From a virus, in the IMG/VR virus record IMGVR_UViG_3300020185_000024, positions 1 to 64,000 of that record: 64,000 nt of DNA. One strand, 5' to 3'. Below are positions 2,843-28,259 of the stretch, one piece after another. The translations under genes were made by a program, and so were the position numbers. The notes beneath the pieces were generated by a model. It had not been told where the DNA came from. It was given only the letters and a program-made list of their open reading frames with translations, and made no database searches. How positions within the stretch are numbered: position 1 is the stretch's first letter; each line of letters starts with the position of its first letter.

Positions 2843-3515
2843 TTTCTACTGTATTTATTTGAACATTAAAAGAAGGGATTTCAAATTCCACCATAAATGG
2901 AACTTTTCTAATCTTTCTTTTTTTATTTTTATTAAATATTATATTAGTTACAATAGCAGTCATCATAGAGCCTATCATAGCTCCTGTTTGTGAAGTAGCT
3001 TTATAAGAGCATTCTTGTTCTTCGATATCTTCATCGTTAAATAACCAATTTTCATATTCTTCTTCTTGTCCAGGAACTACACAAAATATTTGAAATGTTT
3101 CTGCTTGCATTCTTCCGTCAATAAAAGCAATTCTATCATCTTGTAACGCTTTCCAAGCATTAAATAAGCATTTTCTAGCTTTCATATTATCAAAAGCAGA
3201 AAAAGTTAAAGGTAAAGCTTCGCCAGCTTCGTCAAGTTCTCCTAAAAAATGAACATTAGAATTATTACAAGTTTCATAAATTAAATCGCTTAACGCTTTA
3301 AACTTAGTTTTGTCTACATCAGAAGTTTTATAAAGTTGACCTCCCATATTATGTTCTTCAAGAATATCCATTTCATATACATAAATTTCATATCCTAATC
3401 TACCTAACATAATTCCTAACCAAGATCCAATACCTCCAGCACCACCTAAAACTACTTGCATTCCAGGTGTATGCCAAGGAGCATCTTTGAATCTATCAAA
3501 ATTTTGATTTTTCAT
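2817..3515 (-). CDS. E1-like/ThiF-family adenylyltransferase (PRTRC-type)
   Basis: Would adenylate the C-terminus of the ubiquitin-like protein encoded three genes upstream and pass it on as a thioester. The Rossmann ATP-binding loop GGAGGIGS is at 24-31. The acidic Mg/ATP site follows as [10 protein letters not shown] (47-56), and the family DN-x3-R signature is SAFDNMKAR at 106-114. A candidate catalytic cysteine is C169 in EQECSYK. The usual N-x-x-R-Q arginine is missing: the segment is NMGGQ (56-60). At 232 aa it is a minimal E1 without a UFD domain, as in PRTRC ThiF proteins. Its ATG overlaps the stop of the JAMM gene as TAATG, which implies translational coupling. Confidence 0.85.
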
Positions 3516-4963
3516 TAATTTATAATATTTTTATAATTAGGATATTGTTCTCCCCATTCTTTATACATTTTTTCTTCTATAGATTCTTCTTCTTCTATAA
3601 AGTTATTTAATATATTTTCAGATTCTTCTATTAAAACATCTGCTACAGCGTCTCCTAAAAAACTAGATATAGGGGCTAATTTTATATTTTTAGCGCACTC
3701 TTTATAAATAGCTGATTGCAAAGTAGTATTTTGATATTCTATGTCCAATGTGTAGAAAGCAGCTTCATAATACTCTTGTAAAAAAGTTTTAGAACCTTCT
3801 GCAAGTCTTTCAGCATCTTTCATAGTAAATTCAACTTGGCTTCCAGTGTAATCATTTTCAGCAGTTCTGCAACAATTCATTATAAAAACTTCTGAATCTC
3901 TTTCTAATAGCTTTATTAAAAAAGAATCATTTGGAATTTCTTCTTCGTTCCAAATGCACATAAATATAAACTTTTTCATTGCTATTTCTTCTTCTTCAGC
4001 AAATCTGTTATTTGCAGGTTTAGGAAAACTTATACTTTTTTGAGTATTTAAATTTTCAATTCCTTCTTTTGTTTTTTTTACGCCATTTTCTTTTTTGCTT
4101 TCTAGTGAGAAATTGTTCTTTGGAAGAACTCTTTTGTATGGAATACTCATTTGTTTTCCTATCTTGCTTTTTTGATTTTTTATTGTAGGATTTAAACTTT
4201 GATGATGATTTCCATTTATGTACGAAGGCTTGTAAATTTTCATATTGCTGACAGTTTTTGCCTTCTTGATTTCTGCCAGAGCATCTAAAAAATATTGATC
4301 TTTTACTTCTGATTGTCCTTTCCATTCAACATCTAAATCTAAAGTTACTAGCACATCTTTTGTAACTTCTATTTGTTGCTCTTTTAAAAAGAAGTTTTCT
4401 AACTTTTTAAACATTTTACTAGGGTAATACTTAACTTTTTCTGTAGTTGTTTCAGGAACCATGTATGCTATTTTAGCTACAGGTTTTTCATCAAAATTAA
4501 CAATTAAAGAAAGTAATAAACTATCTGTAGTAGCGCAATCTTCTAAAGCTCCCATGTCTGTTCCAGAAAAGAAAGCTCTCATATTATGATGAGTATGAAT
4601 TATTCCCATTTTAACTTTTCCTAATTGTTTAGGATATTTTTGAAAATATTTTACAGCTTCATCTCCTGTTTGAAATTCAGTATATGTAGCATTGCCTATA
4701 TCCATAGGAATCATATCTACTACTTCAGCTTTTATGCTAGAAGGATCGTCTATAGTTCCTTTTAATATTCTCCAAACTAGTCTTCCTGACCATTCTATAG
4801 GTCCCACTTCTTTGTGGAGATACCTAACTTTATTTATAAAGTCAATAGGAACTACTAATTTTCCTTTTTCTTTAAGTTCTATAATCTTATGTTTATGATT
4901 AACTACTTTTCTTTCGTTAATAGGAAGAGAAGTATCTCCTCTGTTATCTGTTATACTATTCAT
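3515..4963 (-). CDS. JAB/JAMM metalloprotease (PRTRC protein A-like) with C-terminal extension
   Basis: Zinc isopeptidase of the JAB/MPN family, expected to process or remove the ubiquitin-like modifier. The complete E-Xn-HxH-X7-S-X2-D signature is present: E57 in PIEWSG, H123 and H125 in IIHTH, S133 and D136 in SGTD. The JAB domain spans about 35-210. A Lys/Asn-rich, probably disordered linker follows (about 235-330), then an acidic helical domain of about 150 residues that I cannot assign. At 482 aa it is much longer than a bare JAB domain. It lies 2 bp after the E2-like gene and its stop overlaps the E1-like start. Confidence 0.88.
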
Positions 4964-15902: not shown

Positions 15903-15904
15903 AG

Positions 15905-16000
15905 AGGTTATTGCAAGACTCGAACTTGCGACTTCGTGTGTATTAAATGGTTTACCTTAGCTTACCAACCACAATGCTCTACCAACTGAGCTAAATAACC
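15905..16000 (-). tRNA. tRNA-like gene with expanded anticodon loop (possibly Thr-GGU)
   Basis: Minus strand. The acceptor stem GGTTATT/AATAACC is perfect. The D arm is GCTC-AGTTGGTA-GAGC, and the T arm is GCAAG-TTCGAGT-CTTGC. TTGTG pairs with CACGA as an anticodon stem, but the loop is 31 nt instead of 7. The loop starts GTTGGTAA, which contains the TTGGTAA usual for tRNA-Thr(GGU). The 3' CCA is not encoded. The 24 extra bases may be an insertion, a cryptic intron or decay. The gene is transcribed just ahead of PolB. Confidence 0.6.
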
Positions 16001-22603: not shown

Positions 22604-23608
22604 CTAATCTAAAATCTTTTCTTTTTTATTATTCTTAAGGATAATCGAATCATTGATTTCCTGAATAATTCCGTAAGTGTTGTTAAATGATTTATAGAAG
22701 CTTAATGCATGAATAGATATGCATTCTCCTATATTCATTTGTTTAGAATGTAAAACTGTACTTAACATGTTAGCATTAAATATGTTTAACCATTCTTTAG
22801 CAACTTTATCTTGTTCTAAAATGTGACTATTTGCATTTACCCATTCTTTAAGAGTTTTGCAAAAATTAATAATACATTTGTTTATAATTGAAGTTGTTAC
22901 TTTATAGTAACTGCTTTCAATTTTATCCCATACTAATTCTTCTTGGGTCACATCGTACTTAGCTAACTTCTCGCCACATTCTTTTTGAAGTTTAGGATTT
23001 ACAAAAGCTAACTTAAAAGCTAAATCATCTTCTTGATAATCACTTTCATTAATAACATTAGATTCAAATACTATTGCATTAGCATTTTTAAGAATAATAT
23101 TATTAGGTTCAGTTACGAACTTATCTTTAAAGTTTTTAAAGAAATGTTTATTTCTAACTAAAGAATTTTCTGTTAGAATAGGTTTTTCTTTAATGATTAT
23201 TAGTTCTTCTTTGATTAATAATCTCATAAATTCGTCGTCTTCTTCTTCGATAATGTTTAAATTTGTAACATTATTAGGACTTTTGCAGACTTTGAATTTA
23301 ACAGTGTCTCCTATGTTTAGGCTATAGTTATTATTATAGTGTTCTATCATAGGGTTAATTAAAGTGTTTGTAGCTAGGGTTGATAAGTCGTCAGCACATT
23401 GTCCAACATGTTCTTTACTACAATTAAGTACTAACGCAACAATATCATCATTAACACTAAGCATTAACAGTTGATACAACGTAATAGCCTTACCATACTT
23501 GATTTCAATTAAGTCTTTAGCTTCAACATGCTCATAATTTATATTATCTAGCATAGACAATTGACTTAATAATGCAGTATCTCTAAACTGGTCTTCTAAA
23601 TTATTCAT
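22604..23608 (-). CDS. Hypothetical protein, 334 aa
   Basis: Soluble, mostly helical protein with acidic patches (NIIEEEDDEF near 115-125). NYNNNYSLNIGDTVKFKVCKS (about 87-107) looks like a small beta-barrel. Cysteines are scattered without a metal motif. Monocistronic: the repeated promoter/leader element lies upstream and a terminator downstream. No family recognised. Confidence 0.7.
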   Translation of the reverse strand: MNNLEDQFRDTALLSQLSMLDNINYEHVEAKDLIEIKYGKAITLYQLLMLSVNDDIVALVLNCSKEHVGQCADDLSTLATNTLINPMIEHYNNNYSLNIGDTVKFKVCKSPNNVTNLNIIEEEDDEFMRLLIKEELIIIKEKPILTENSLVRNKHFFKNFKDKFVTEPNNIILKNANAIVFESNVINESDYQEDDLAFKLAFVNPKLQKECGEKLAKYDVTQEELVWDKIESSYYKVTTSIINKCIINFCKTLKEWVNANSHILEQDKVAKEWLNIFNANMLSTVLHSKQMNIGECISIHALSFYKSFNNTYGIIQEINDSIILKNNKKEKILD

Positions 23609-23616
23609 AATTTCTT

Positions 23617-23706
23617 TTTTTTAGATTAAACGAAAATGCGAATAAAAAGCTTAAAAAGCTTTTCTACTCAATATATAAAAAGAGGTGTGTAAACTTCAGA
23701 GAAATA
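23617..23706 (-). promoter_or_regulatory. Repeated promoter, hairpin and leader element (334-aa gene)
   Basis: Minus strand order: ATTTCTCTGAAGTTTAC, 17-nt spacing, TTATATATTG (box near 23669-23678), hairpin AAAAGCTT-TTT-AAGCTTTT, then GTTTAATCTAAAAA ending just before the ATG region. Shares its layout with the elements at 24738, 25121 and 25395. Confidence 0.6.
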
Positions 23707-24071
23707 AAGGAGATAGAAGGAGGGAGATTGGCAGATTGCCAACAGAGAAAGAAAGAACCAAAGAAAGAGACTTTGACTCTATTTCTGGCTTAAGGTTTCT
23801 TTCTTATGAATAATAAGAATGCTCAAAGCTAACTTTTCTCAAAATACAAACCAAATATTCTCTGCTAAATTTTGTTAACTAATAAGATAATGTTTATACC
23901 TTAAAAGCATTAACAGGTGAAAGATAACAATTAAGCTACCTCTCACCTTTTAATTTCTAATCTATCAAACCTAACCCATTAGGCAAAAATGAGAAATCCT
24001 ATAAATAGCCACTAAACGGCAATTAGTGGCAAAATATAGTTACGCATAACGTATTTGTATAAACAGTCGTT
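23707..24071. other. Gene-free stretch with hairpins
   Basis: 365 nt without a supported ORF. Three hairpins are visible: TTGGCA-GAT-TGCCAA (23729-23743), AGGTGA...TCACCT (near 23915-23948) and GCCACTA...TAGTGGC (24008-24030). The last could end transcription of the 140-aa gene. Nothing else seen. Confidence 0.4.
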
Positions 24072-24494
24072 TTAATGCCGTTCATACCCATCAGAAGGCT
24101 CTCTATCTCTAATAGAATACTTTTTCTCTTCAAAATAGTCTATCAGGTCCCAATGACCTTTTAACCACGTCATCATAGTAAAATAAATACAATCGTAAAA
24201 TTCTACTTCTCCTATATCTTCTATAGAATCTCCTTCGTTTAGGTGCTTAGTTATATCACATCTTAAAGTTTCCCAACAGCCACCTCTTCTTGTGCCATAT
24301 TCCTTAGGTCTGTTAAAAACTTCTGCCCAGCTATCACCTCCCCATTCTAAATTAATATTAAAGGGAGCACTAAAGCCATCATCTCCAGGATTAGTTTTAA
24401 ATACCTTACGAGCATGATTATGTTGCAATTCATAATAAGGAATTACATTACCTTTTTCATCTAATATTTCAAACGTTAATTTTTCAGTTTTCAT
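24072..24494 (-). CDS. Hypothetical protein, 140 aa
   Basis: The frame continues to 24521, but the ATG at 24494 (MKTEKLTFEIL) directly follows the conserved leader and is the likely start. The product has acidic and aromatic character, with WGGDSWAEVFNRP and YFTMMTWLKGHWDLIDYF segments and no membrane span. Unknown function. The conserved leader and a long 5' hairpin suggest regulated expression with the other accessory genes. Confidence 0.65.
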   Translation of the reverse strand: MKTEKLTFEILDEKGNVIPYYELQHNHARKVFKTNPGDDGFSAPFNINLEWGGDSWAEVFNRPKEYGTRRGGCWETLRCDITKHLNEGDSIEDIGEVEFYDCIYFTMMTWLKGHWDLIDYFEEKKYSIRDREPSDGYERH

Positions 24495-24585
24495 TACAAT
24501 TAAATTTTTTAGATTAAACAATTAAGTAACAGCGAACACATACCCTTTTGCGAAAAAGTGCACTATTAAAAATACAAGTATGTGT
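24495..24585 (-). promoter_or_regulatory. Leader with long 5' hairpin (140-aa gene)
   Basis: Minus strand. GAACACATAC (near 24579) pairs with GTATGTGTTC (near 24534), a perfect 10-bp stem with a large loop, then TTGTTTAATCTAAAAAATTT leads to the ATG. The promoter-like CTATATATTG box is not clear here. Confidence 0.5.
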
Positions 24586-24620
24586 TCTCTTCTGCTACTG
24601 TTTGTGAAATTCCAATCTCA

Positions 24621-24737
24621 CTATCTTTTGAGTTTTCTACTCATTCTTTTACCTGCTTCATAGTCACTCCCAACTATAAAACCAACTAATAACCCTAGAA
24701 ATAAAGCTATCATCCCAACAATTAAAATGGTATCCAT
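24621..24737 (-). CDS. Small membrane protein, 38 aa
   Basis: MDTILIVGMIALFLGLLVGF continues into IVGSDYEAGKRMSRKLKR and a TAG stop. One hydrophobic segment spans about 3-23 with a basic C-terminus, so the N-terminus probably faces the periplasm. It is preceded by the repeated promoter/hairpin/leader element in variant form, which makes it a real gene despite its size. Function unknown. Confidence 0.65.
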   Translation of the reverse strand: MDTILIVGMIALFLGLLVGFIVGSDYEAGKRMSRKLKR

Positions 24738-24822
24738 TTTCTTATCTTTTTTGATTAGACATTTAGAAGAACAAAGTTCTTCCTCTCAAAACATAGAAAG
24801 AGGAGAGTAGTTTTCAGAAAAA
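24738..24822 (-). promoter_or_regulatory. Repeated promoter, hairpin and leader element (38-aa gene)
   Basis: Minus strand. ATTTTTCTGA, 17-nt spacing, CTATGTTTTG (24796-24787), perfect hairpin GAAGAAC-TTT-GTTCTTC, then GTCTAATCAAAAAAG before the ATG. It differs from the others at the last leader bases. Confidence 0.6.
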
Positions 24823-24862
24823 TAAAAAAGATAAAACCCCCACCCGAAGGTGAGGATTGATA

Positions 24863-25120
24863 TTAGAGTGTTTCAAGAACGTTGATTTCAACCCTATTGT
24901 GGAGCATTTTGAATATGTCTCCAGTATCAGGCGAAGTACATTCGCTGATAATAGTAGTTTTTGAAGAATCAAAGTTAGTAGCTACAGGGCCTCTAACTGC
25001 ACCGCAGGTAAAGTATCTCTTTTCAGAGTTCTCTCTCTTAGAGATTGTCAATGTAGTAACTCCTTGCTCTACTTTTAGCTGTGCTATAGTCTGAGCTTGA
25101 CCGAAGATTAAATTATTCAT
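24863..25120 (-). CDS. Hypothetical protein, 85 aa
   Basis: Beta-rich small protein (LKVEQGVTTLTISKRENSEK, YFTCGAVRGPVATNF) with two cysteines and no membrane segment. Its own promoter/leader element lies directly upstream. No family recognised. Confidence 0.65.
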   Translation of the reverse strand: MNNLIFGQAQTIAQLKVEQGVTTLTISKRENSEKRYFTCGAVRGPVATNFDSSKTTIISECTSPDTGDIFKMLHNRVEINVLETL

Positions 25121-25190
25121 GATAATAGATTTTTAGATTAGGTGAATATCCACCAATATATAGAACAAGGTTCATAAACCTCAGAAAAAT
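25121..25190 (-). promoter_or_regulatory. Repeated promoter, hairpin and leader element (85-aa gene)
   Basis: Minus strand. ATTTTTCTGA, 17-nt spacing, CTATATATTG (25163-25154), hairpin GGTG-GATATT-CACC, then TAATCTAAAAATC before the ATG. One of the two best-matching copies; the other is at 25395. Confidence 0.65.
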
Positions 25191-25214
25191 AAGAGAGATT
25201 AAATCTCTCCTTTC

Positions 25215-25394
25215 TCATTCTAAACCTTTTTCAAAGCCTATTTGCCAACCATCATCATAGCCTTGATTATAGCCTTGATAGCGAGCATCTTCAATAGTGT
25301 TATCATAAGCATCCATTGTCATGTTGCCTAATATGCATACTCCTATACCTAGTACAAAGTACACTATAGCTATTGCTATTTCTTTTCTCTTCAT
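25215..25394 (-). CDS. Small membrane protein with GY-rich tail, 59 aa
   Basis: The frame extends to 25439, but the ATG at 25394 (MKRKEIAIAIVYF) follows the conserved leader and is preferred. One membrane segment spans about 5-24. A polar tail with repeated glycine-aromatic pairs follows (RYQGYNQGYDDGWQIGFEKG), which might stack or insert in an assembly. The N-terminus should be cytoplasmic by charge. Function unknown. Confidence 0.6.
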   Translation of the reverse strand: MKRKEIAIAIVYFVLGIGVCILGNMTMDAYDNTIEDARYQGYNQGYDDGWQIGFEKGLE

Positions 25395-25510
25395 CGTTAT
25401 TGTATTTAGATTAAACAATTCTTTAATATATAAAAGCAAGTATAAACATTCCTCAGGGAAGGAGTCAACCTCCCCAATATATAGAACCAGGCATAATCAT
25501 TAGAGAAATA
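25395..25510 (-). promoter_or_regulatory. Repeated promoter, hairpin and leader element (59-aa gene)
   Basis: Minus strand. ATTTCTCTAATG, GTTCTATATATTGG (box 25484-25475), hairpin GGGGAG...CTCC, then TTTAATCTAAATAC before the ATG. Spacing between the first block and the box is about 2 nt shorter than in the other copies. Confidence 0.6.
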
Positions 25511-25717
25511 ATAGAGATAAGAACTACCCCAGATCAAATCTTGGTTCATACATTTTCATTTAGTTTTAAGTGGGGGGTATGTTCCCCAAGTTTTTGATAG
25601 GGGGGAGTAGTTTTTAGTACCTCCACATACAATTCCTCGACATTAATTTTTCAAAAAAAAAATAAAAAATTTTTTGTCGCAAATATTTACTAAAATGTGA
25701 CAGAACTTTATAAACGG
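25511..25717. other. Gene-free stretch at the end of the 101-aa gene's transcript
   Basis: About 200 nt with no ORF. Contains G-runs (gggggg near 25574 and 25602) and a long A/T block (25654-25677, A10 then T6), which may mark a bent or easily melted site. Nothing further identified. Confidence 0.35.
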
Positions 25718-26360: not shown

Positions 26361-26390
26361 CAAATATAATAAAAATATTTTATATATTTG
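26361..26390. promoter_or_regulatory. Divergent leaderless promoters at the arm junction
   Basis: Two TATATTTG boxes face away from each other: minus strand at 26368-26361 toward the ATG at 26355, and plus strand at 26383-26390 toward the ATG at 26396. Each lies only 5 nt from its start codon. The 14 nt between them are A/T only. Confidence 0.65.
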
Positions 26391-26395
26391 TAACT

Positions 26396-26698
26396 ATGGA
26401 ACAAAAATTAATACCTATAACAGAATTAATAATGTTAGCTAACGATACATTCGTATTTAGAAAATGTTATTTTGATGCTAACACTATATGGAAGTTTAGA
26501 GAAATATTAGTGGAGAACTATAGTAAAGAAGAATTTGTAACGCTTATCGTGCCTGCAGGAGATGCAGACGCAGAGACAGTGGTTGTAGAGTCTATCGAAA
26601 AGATAAGAAGTCTTATGAAAGAGGCTAACGTAATGGAAGTAAAACATAAATATGAAAGAAATAACAAACGCAATGACGGTGATTGGAGAGATAGCTAA
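26396..26698 (+). CDS. Hypothetical protein, 100 aa, first rightward gene
   Basis: The open frame begins earlier (26183), but the ATG at 26396 follows the TATATTTG box and is the real start. Mixed alpha/beta protein with a helical middle (ANTIWKFREILVENYSKEEF) and a basic C-terminus (KHKYERNNKRNDGDWRDS). It overlaps the next gene by 47 bp. Probably early or regulatory; no domain recognised. Confidence 0.6.
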   Translation: MEQKLIPITELIMLANDTFVFRKCYFDANTIWKFREILVENYSKEEFVTLIVPAGDADAETVVVESIEKIRSLMKEANVMEVKHKYERNNKRNDGDWRDS

Positions 26699-27347: not shown

Positions 27348-27503
27348 ACAAAGAAAAAGAGAAGCAGAAAAAGAAATAGTATCTTATTATATAATACCTT
27401 TTCTGCATGGACCACGCAAAGCTAATCTTTTTTACTATACAAAAAACTTTTTAACAATATTTTTTTAATTTTTTTATTCGGAATAATTTTATATATTTGT
27501 TAA
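27348..27503 (+). promoter_or_regulatory. Intergenic region with TATATTTG promoter
   Basis: No ORF. The box TATATTTG at 27492-27499 ends 4 nt before the ATG at 27504, implying a leaderless message for the start of the virion arm. An A/T-rich tract precedes it. Confidence 0.6.
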
Positions 27504-28259
27504 ATGGAACATGTAATATGGACAGGGCAAGAAGGAGCTACACAATTTGAAGAAGCTATTGATCAACATCTTCAGCAAAACACTTTTCAACAAACTATGA
27601 CAGCTACAACAAGAACAGTTAGATTTAGTCCTCAAGATTCAATCCCAGCAGGATCAGGATCAGAATTAATAGAAGATATGGAAAATACTAATAGTAGATG
27701 GTATAGTCAAGAACTACTTAACGCTTACAATAATTATCTTCATAATAATATAGGATTCTCTAGAGAAACAACTAATGATTCTTTTGGATGGGCGACAGAA
27801 ACAAATGCTGATCAAGCAGTAGAATACTTAAGAGAGTCTGAACAAAAACTAAAGCTTACAAAAGACTTTTTAGAAGGAAAAAGAAAACTACTAGATGTGA
27901 AAGAAAATAAATACACTATAAAAGATATAATTCCTAATTACGATAACTTTGTAGCAGAATTAAAAATTAAACTAAAAAAAGAAGCTGAGGAACGTAAACT
28001 TAAAGGAAACATTAAAGCTAATCCTTCTTCTAAAAGAGTACTAAAAGAATTATCGGATGAAGAAGAGCGTGCAATAAAAGCTTCAAAAAGAAAAGGAGAC
28101 TTAGCATGGAAAAGAGCGCCAAGTCAAATATCAGACACTGTTATAGCAACAGGAATGGCAACAATGGCTACTCAAAACTTAAACAATGCTCCTACAAGTA
28201 GAAATGAGCAATTAAAACAACAATGGATAAATTTTCAACAAAGAAATGCACGAACTTAA
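27504..28259 (+). CDS. Hypothetical protein, 251 aa, start of the virion arm
   Basis: Gln/Asn-rich N-terminal third with low complexity (FEEAIDQHLQQNTFQQTM), then a Lys/Glu-rich helical region (about 110-180) and a Thr/Ala/Gln-rich tail. No membrane segment. First gene of a long rightward operon leading to the packaging genes, behind a leaderless promoter. Possibly a regulator or assembly factor; not recognised. Confidence 0.7.
   Translation: MEHVIWTGQEGATQFEEAIDQHLQQNTFQQTMTATTRTVRFSPQDSIPAGSGSELIEDMENTNSRWYSQELLNAYNNYLHNNIGFSRETTNDSFGWATETNADQAVEYLRESEQKLKLTKDFLEGKRKLLDVKENKYTIKDIIPNYDNFVAELKIKLKKEAEERKLKGNIKANPSSKRVLKELSDEEERAIKASKRKGDLAWKRAPSQISDTVIATGMATMATQNLNNAPTSRNEQLKQQWINFQQRNART

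Follow-up and report, generated by a model that had tools for sequence, protein, structure and literature searches.

The DNA analysed here is a window of 64,000 nucleotides that forms the start of a 90,666-base virus record (IMGVR_UViG_3300020185_000024), for which a second IMG/VR record (L006/L048) represents the identical virus at 99.99%. The terminase, portal, major head protein and DNA polymerase have PHROGs matches that mark the phage as crAss-like, and the nearest known terminases are those of gut crAss-like phages; a near-identity search of 20 kb of the window against known phages gave no match. At about 25.5–26.4 kb lies a hub from which minus-strand genes run leftward and plus-strand genes rightward. 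Beside this hub, confined to 25.5–23.6 kb on the minus strand, are four gene starts built alike, ahead of the genes at 25215, 24863, 24621 and 22604: an upstream box (ATTT.TCT[GA]A), 15–17 nt, a downstream box (YTATRTWTTG), a hairpin, a leader (TAATC[TA]AAA) and the ATG.

Reading leftward, with all unit features on the minus strand, unit 25215 has a degenerate upstream box, ATTTCTCTAA (25500–25509), at a spacing of 15 from the downstream box CTATATATTG (25475–25484), followed by the hairpin GGGAGGTTGACTCCTTCC (25457–25474; z −0.1, a stability not above that of shuffles), the leader TAATCTAAAT (25404–25413) and a small gene of 59 amino acids with a hydrophobic segment (25215–25394, ATG at 25394), recognised from the sequence and its open reading frame. 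A terminator-like hairpin after this gene (25191–25211) has a T-run that overlaps the upstream box of unit 24863, ATTTTTCTGA (25181–25190), which is succeeded by CTATATATTG (25154–25163), the hairpin GGTGGATATTCACC (25141–25154; z −1.4), the leader TAATCTAAAA (25131–25140) and an 85-amino-acid gene (24863–25120) orthologous to crAss001 gp1 and cr128_1 gp10. After a further terminator-like hairpin (24835–24858), unit 24621 shows the boxes ATTTTTCTGA (24814–24823) and CTATGTTTTG (24787–24796), the hairpin GGAAGAACTTTGTTCTTCT with an 8-bp stem and 3-nt loop (24765–24783; z −2.3), the leader TAATCAAAAA (24748–24757) and a 38-amino-acid gene with a hydrophobic segment (24621–24737). The 140-amino-acid gene at 24072–24494, without a family match, carries the leader TAATCTAAAA (24507–24516) behind an intercistronic long-stem structure without boxes (24517–24620; z −3.4). 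Unit 22604 lies downstream of a terminator-like hairpin (23754–23780) and comprises the boxes ATTTCTCTGA (23696–23705) and TTATATATTG (23669–23678), the hairpin GAAAAGCTT-TTT-AAGCTTTTT (23644–23664; z −1.7), the leader TAATCTAAAA (23619–23628) and a 334-amino-acid gene with no clear family match (22604–23608). Further left, the gene at 16879 has a hairpin (17153–17176; z −2.4) upstream of a perfect host-type −7 box, TATATTTG (17141–17148), and the leader TAATCTAAAA (17126–17135). Long gene-free stretches occur beside the early units on the minus strand, at 19.4–20.1 kb and 17.1–17.4 kb.

The full order of two boxes, gap, TAATC[TA]AAA and ATG was found four times in the 90.7-kb genome and in none of 100 dinucleotide shuffles, a contrast that is generous because the pattern was composed after the sites had been seen. 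The box pair ATTTNTCTGA-N17-CTATATATTG with at most three mismatches occurs at three sites, all on the minus strand (25190–25154, 24823–24787 and 23705–23669), against a shuffle mean of 0.24, with none of 100 shuffles reaching three; the fourth, degenerate pair is that at 25509–25475. Searched singly with one mismatch allowed, TTTAATCTAAA and TATATATTG were no more frequent than expected by chance, and it is the combination and position of the elements that matter, not the single boxes. An earlier note on this DNA, made from the letters alone, had described the shared order at these four genes, which holds, although its consensus needs correction: unit 24621 has CTATGTTTTG and TAATCAAAAA, unit 22604 has TTATATATTG and unit 25215 has TAATCTAAAT, the proposed spacer of about 17 nt applies to three box pairs but is 15 at 25215, and the 'GTn' placed before the leader is missing at 24863 (CACCTAATC). 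Its statement that the hairpin sequence differs each time was borne out, every unit having a hairpin and the stems sharing no sequence. The start-region family is real and tightly localised; its promoter boxes are new, its translation signal is ordinary and its hairpins are unproven.

Terminator-like hairpins are enriched in the region (15 vs 3.4) and closely precede the boxes of units 24863, 24621 and 22604 (25211, 24858 and 23780), such that each putative module promoter comes after a terminator-like hairpin or the hub. The gene at 24072 is the only boxless leader gene in the run and also the only one without a terminator before it, none having been found between 24621 and 24072. That boxes and terminators are present together and absent together is the strongest argument within the genome itself for regarding the boxes as promoters. 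The terminator scan did not mark the hairpins before the leaders, which lack the G+C-rich stem and T-run of intrinsic terminators. The same arrangement bears on the proposal that longer polycistronic early transcripts are processed or delimited at the hairpins, the boxes being incidental. In the related phages L072 and L037 structured intercistronic elements precede leaders without recognisable boxes, and 24072 is similar, as this proposal would expect; the box-bearing units are, however, separated by terminator-like sites and the order of their boxes is far beyond chance, and we regard it as improbable.

Two features of the phage suggest when these units are used. The 24863 product shares 31–37% identity with proteins of L037, cr128_1 and L079, in a family that includes crAss001 gp1, and the phage encodes a 2092-amino-acid ortholog of the phi14:2 gp66-type virion RNA polymerase (6vr4, E 1.5e-258; 33% to phi14:2). 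The crAss001 genes at the gp1 end of the genome are expressed from 0–10 min after infection, in an account that does not name gp1 itself (PMC8375218), and early transcription by the phi14:2 virion polymerase is rifampicin-resistant (PMC10136315). Because 24863 is orthologous to a crAss001 early-end gene and the phage has this polymerase, the module units are probably tandem early transcription units, with the virion polymerase as a candidate for reading the boxes. Phages of the crAss-like group bring an unusual RNA polymerase of their own into the cell. No description of the DNA start signal of a crAss-like virion polymerase was found in a literature search that did not cover the primary phi14:2 paper, and the word 'promoter' is absent from the Crassvirales review.

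The principal competitor for promoter recognition is the host enzyme. We compared the boxes with the Bacteroidetes sigma-ABfr consensus (−33 TTTG / −7 TAnnTTTG); its −7 positions are T−12, A−11, T−8, T−7, T−6 and G−5 (PMC6847099). The modules resemble such promoters in having two boxes at a similar spacing and a downstream box that also ends in TTG. All four downstream boxes nevertheless place the TA one base further upstream than the host −7 element, so that none reads TAnnTTTG, which is found at 17141 and other sites, and the distance of the −33 TTTG is occupied instead by ATTTnTCTGA or ATTTCTCTAA. Perfect TATATTTG occurs at five intergenic sites in the genome (26383+, 27492+, 26361−, 17141− and 12003−); a sigma-70 promoter scan gave counts not above shuffles. 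The boxes could be a variant host promoter, either sigma-ABfr with a 9-base −7 element or an alternative host sigma, with nothing phage-specific reading them, since YTATRTWTTG can be seen as TAnnTTTG-like with one extra base and, in flavobacteria, several variants of the sigma-A motif exist beside alternative sigma motifs (PMC9723704). When TATATATTG is aligned at G−5, however, it fails three of the six nearly invariant host positions, TTTG is missing at −33, and other genes in the same genome use perfect TATATTTG; we consider this explanation rather unlikely, if deserving of attention. The phage-specific promoter class put forward in the earlier note remains the likeliest reading because of the consistent departure from the host −7 element, the adjoining terminators, the crAss001 early-end ortholog and the phage's own virion polymerase, although the boxes were not found in relatives.

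At three hub genes a perfect TATATTTG ends only 4–5 nt before the ATG (26383–26396 and 27492–27504 on the plus strand, 26361–26355 on the minus strand), and transcripts of these genes may be leaderless, unlike those of the boxed units.

The leader has a wider distribution than the boxes. TAATC[TA]AAA with an ATG 8–14 nt on occurs six times in the genome, where shuffles average 1.4 and reach at most 6, at the ATGs 25394, 25120, 24737, 24494, 23608 and 17115; five copies are intergenic, vs 0.7 expected. Positions −14 to −11 read AAAA in five of the six leaders and TAAA in the sixth, with A at −6 in five and at −3 in four, A being common in this phage genome anyway. In reporter tests in Flavobacterium johnsoniae, A at −14 to −11, −6 and −3 increases translation (PMC6847099), and across 258 gene starts from Bacteroidota loci A is enriched at −13 to −11 and −3. 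Like the F. johnsoniae initiation region, the phage leader has no Shine-Dalgarno sequence, and it differs from that region in an extra conserved TAATC just upstream. The leader is also not tied to one promoter class, as the host-type box at 17141 precedes the same sequence. Its occurrence at 24072, which has no boxes, and at 16879, where the promoter is host-type, makes a Bacteroidetes Shine-Dalgarno-independent translation initiation region with a phage-specific TAATC the best reading of the TAATCTAAAA leader. Of the RNA module proposed earlier, this leaves about half: the leader is better understood as a signal for translation, and a shielding role of the hairpin is unproven. An Rfam search gave no match for the leaders, the region yielding only a group I intron and a transfer RNA (tRNA).

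It might be argued that the leader is simply the common host translation start and that the units look alike through AT-rich composition, as A-rich sequence at −14 to −11 is general in Bacteroidetes and the enrichment at −13 to −11 in the 258 starts agrees with this. TAATCTAAAA was indeed tried as a standard host leader, and was rejected for its TAATC and retained for its A-run: in 148 Bacteroidota genomes TTTAATCTAAAA-N8-12-ATG had 43 matches vs 23 for the reversed pattern (~1.9-fold only), a rarity at odds with several copies in one 90-kb phage. A pattern that included the host −7 box as well hit mostly Bacteroidota, and because of that box its matches were not counted as evidence. A second argument against a purely host origin comes from phi14:2, whose first hub gene (g111) has the leader TAATCTTAAACATCTAATATCATG vs TAATCTAAAAATCTATTATCATG at 24863, identical at 21 of 24 positions when the 13 nt after the leader are included, a match equalled in one of 200 shuffled hubs. 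We therefore give the common-start explanation little credence. No homology was detected between the products of g111 and 24863; the leader comparison suggests that crAss-like phages retain the translation start sequences of early genes even when the gene that follows is a different one. Elsewhere in the group this position is held by different repeated leaders (ATTAACCTTAAAACTAT in L072, TTAACACTAAAAAAC in L037 and ATTAACAATTTAACA in gut phages).

The role of the hairpins is less clear-cut, and taken singly they are modest in stability (z from −0.1 to −3.4). If transcription started 4–5 nt after the box, as with the host enzyme, the stems at 24621 and 22604 would begin near the 5′ end of the messenger RNA (mRNA), a position compatible with the earlier suggestion that hairpins shield 5′ ends. 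That suggestion is inapplicable at 16879, where a transcript from the host-type promoter would lack the hairpin because it lies upstream of the −7 box (17148–17141). The earlier note had given this gene and 24072 the leader and hairpin with weaker or other boxes; 24072 has no boxes at all. A hairpin-plus-leader layout with other sequences occurs in L072, L037 and phi14:2, including long closed stems before leaders in L072 and phi14:2, and the mean z in the same test was −2.9 for L072, −1.9 for phi14:2 and −0.4 for L037, the last not outstanding; the module stems could not be aligned across phages. A function of the hairpin as 5′ shield or spacer is possible on this sequence evidence.

In phage N4 a virion polymerase of the T7-like family transcribes the early genes from hairpin promoters whose stems share sequence. 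The hairpins here could likewise be promoter DNA elements, either N4-like or palindromic operators that overlap the start site and would be bound by a phage regulator. Both systems have early genes and a virion polymerase, here as the presumed reader of the boxes, and inverted repeats beside the start; each repeat is found right at the box or immediately after it, the loops at 24621 and 22604 are 3 nt long, and the crAss transcription programme has been likened to that of N4 (PMC10136315). Unlike N4 promoters or an operator, however, the stems and loops of the modules have no sequence in common, the repeats follow the box, the polymerase is of the 6vr4 and not the T7-like type, and the 16879 palindrome is upstream of the −7 box. 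Neither of the two marks of N4-type promoters, shared stem sequence and a T7-like virion polymerase, was thus found, and a role as DNA elements appears unlikely.

Long non-coding stretches with repeated closed stems (ACTCTCATCC ... CCTTGTGAGAGT) were also seen in L072 (480–3000) and L037 (4000–5300), and the window has a similar stem, TAAACTCTTATCC ... CCTTGTAAGAGTTTA, at about 22520–22420. They may belong to one family of structured RNAs from the early regions of crAss-like phages.

Relatives were sought by terminase, DNA polymerase and the 24863 protein; the leader and hairpin layout was found in them, the boxes were not. Two genomes at 70–90% identity, L007 and L018, end short of the hub. 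Viral contigs searched with composite patterns (boxes plus leader, or the box pair) returned the same virus and scattered matches, mostly chance-like in coding sequence; in one contig (L045) TATATATTG, a hairpin-like repeat, TTTAATCTAAAA and ATG follow one another, perhaps a real but isolated case. The early region of phi14:2 (g111–g114, g001–g006) resembles that of the window in its orthologous virion RNA polymerase, hub position, hub element CCCCC..GGGG..CCCC, small genes each with a hairpin ahead and TAATC leader at the first gene, but no ATTTnTCTGA/YTATRTWTTG pair was found in it and most of its leaders are TTAAC-type, not TAATCTAAAA. In crAss001 the gp1 ortholog of 24863 is likewise at the hub, the hub element can be aligned and the early expression cited above concerns the same genome end, whereas the leader is ATTAACAATTTAACA, the window boxes are absent and one hub promoter region is seen in place of repeated boxed units.

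The hub element itself consists of a T-tract followed by CCCCCC..GGGG-N6-CCCCCC (25552–25655, minus strand), conserved in position in phi14:2, crAss001 and gut relatives. A T-tract and CCCCC..GGGG-N4-6-CCCC before the first early gene are common to the window, phi14:2, crAss001 and seven relatives, making this the one constituent of the early start region that all compared phages retain. Pairing of the GGGG is conceivable with either flanking C-run, a possible alternative pairing switch; covariation is weak, with a double change in one of six predicted pairs and an unfavourable covariation term (+0.36). The hub element may be a better candidate than the boxes for a general polymerase or regulatory signal. 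In phage tikkala (L083), which has two gp1 orthologs (3261–3521 and 4001–4261), the 3′ part of the hub element is duplicated ahead of the second copy.

Unusual RNA genes lie further left in the window. At 21306–20066 on the minus strand a gene resembling transfer-messenger RNA (tmRNA), whose ends (GGGCCTGACTGG..GACAGG at the 5′ side and ..CCAGGTCCA at the 3′ side) could pair as a 7-bp acceptor stem, is apparently split by a group I intron, which Rfam places within it at 20780–20564; ARAGORN recognised no gene in trial joins of the halves, and the tmRNA that phi14:2 has in the corresponding genome part is intact. A tRNA at 15904–16000 (minus strand) carries 31 extra nt in or close to its anticodon arm and is given a 4-base anticodon by ARAGORN, a similar oddity to the crAss001 tRNA-OTHER (taat) at 101478–101568.

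On balance we posit, with somewhat more confidence than doubt, that the modules combine an early promoter, a hairpin and a translation leader in the left arm of the phage, next to the divergence hub. We infer that the boxes (ATTTnTCTGA, about 17 nt, YTATRTWTTG) would form a promoter class distinct from that of the host, for which the injected virion RNA polymerase or a modified host polymerase is the likeliest reader. A short stem-loop of free sequence would then stand at or near the mRNA 5′ end, most likely protecting this end and the region upstream against pairing with the start region or against degradation, and the A-run at −14 to −11 of the TAATCTAAAA leader would let ribosomes land without a Shine-Dalgarno sequence.

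Several observations weigh against this interpretation. The boxes were not found in L072, L037, phi14:2 or the gut relatives and occur only in this phage, in two near-identical records, so that conservation cannot show which polymerase reads them; the motif search across genome and relatives that the earlier note called for yielded four full modules in the genome and no boxes in these relatives. Between viruses so far apart, a recognition sequence may have drifted. Part of the likeness could stem from the partial overlap of the upstream box with terminator T-tracts. Set against 39 ordinary gene starts of this phage, the hairpins are only marginally more stable (p = 0.075; p = 0.063 over all four phages), and a start 4–5 nt after the box would cut the hairpins at 24863 and 25215.

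A more specific and bolder version, which we advance tentatively and think doubtful as it stands, is that ATTTnTCTGA-N17-YTATRTWTTG is a promoter of a crAss-like virion RNA polymerase, with a 5′-terminal stem-loop of free sequence required in early transcripts. The presence of a phi14:2-type enzyme together with four bounded start regions provides a short list of DNA templates for a candidate start signal. If true, this version would supply a rule for the promoter and the leader that go with the polymerase of an abundant group of phages.

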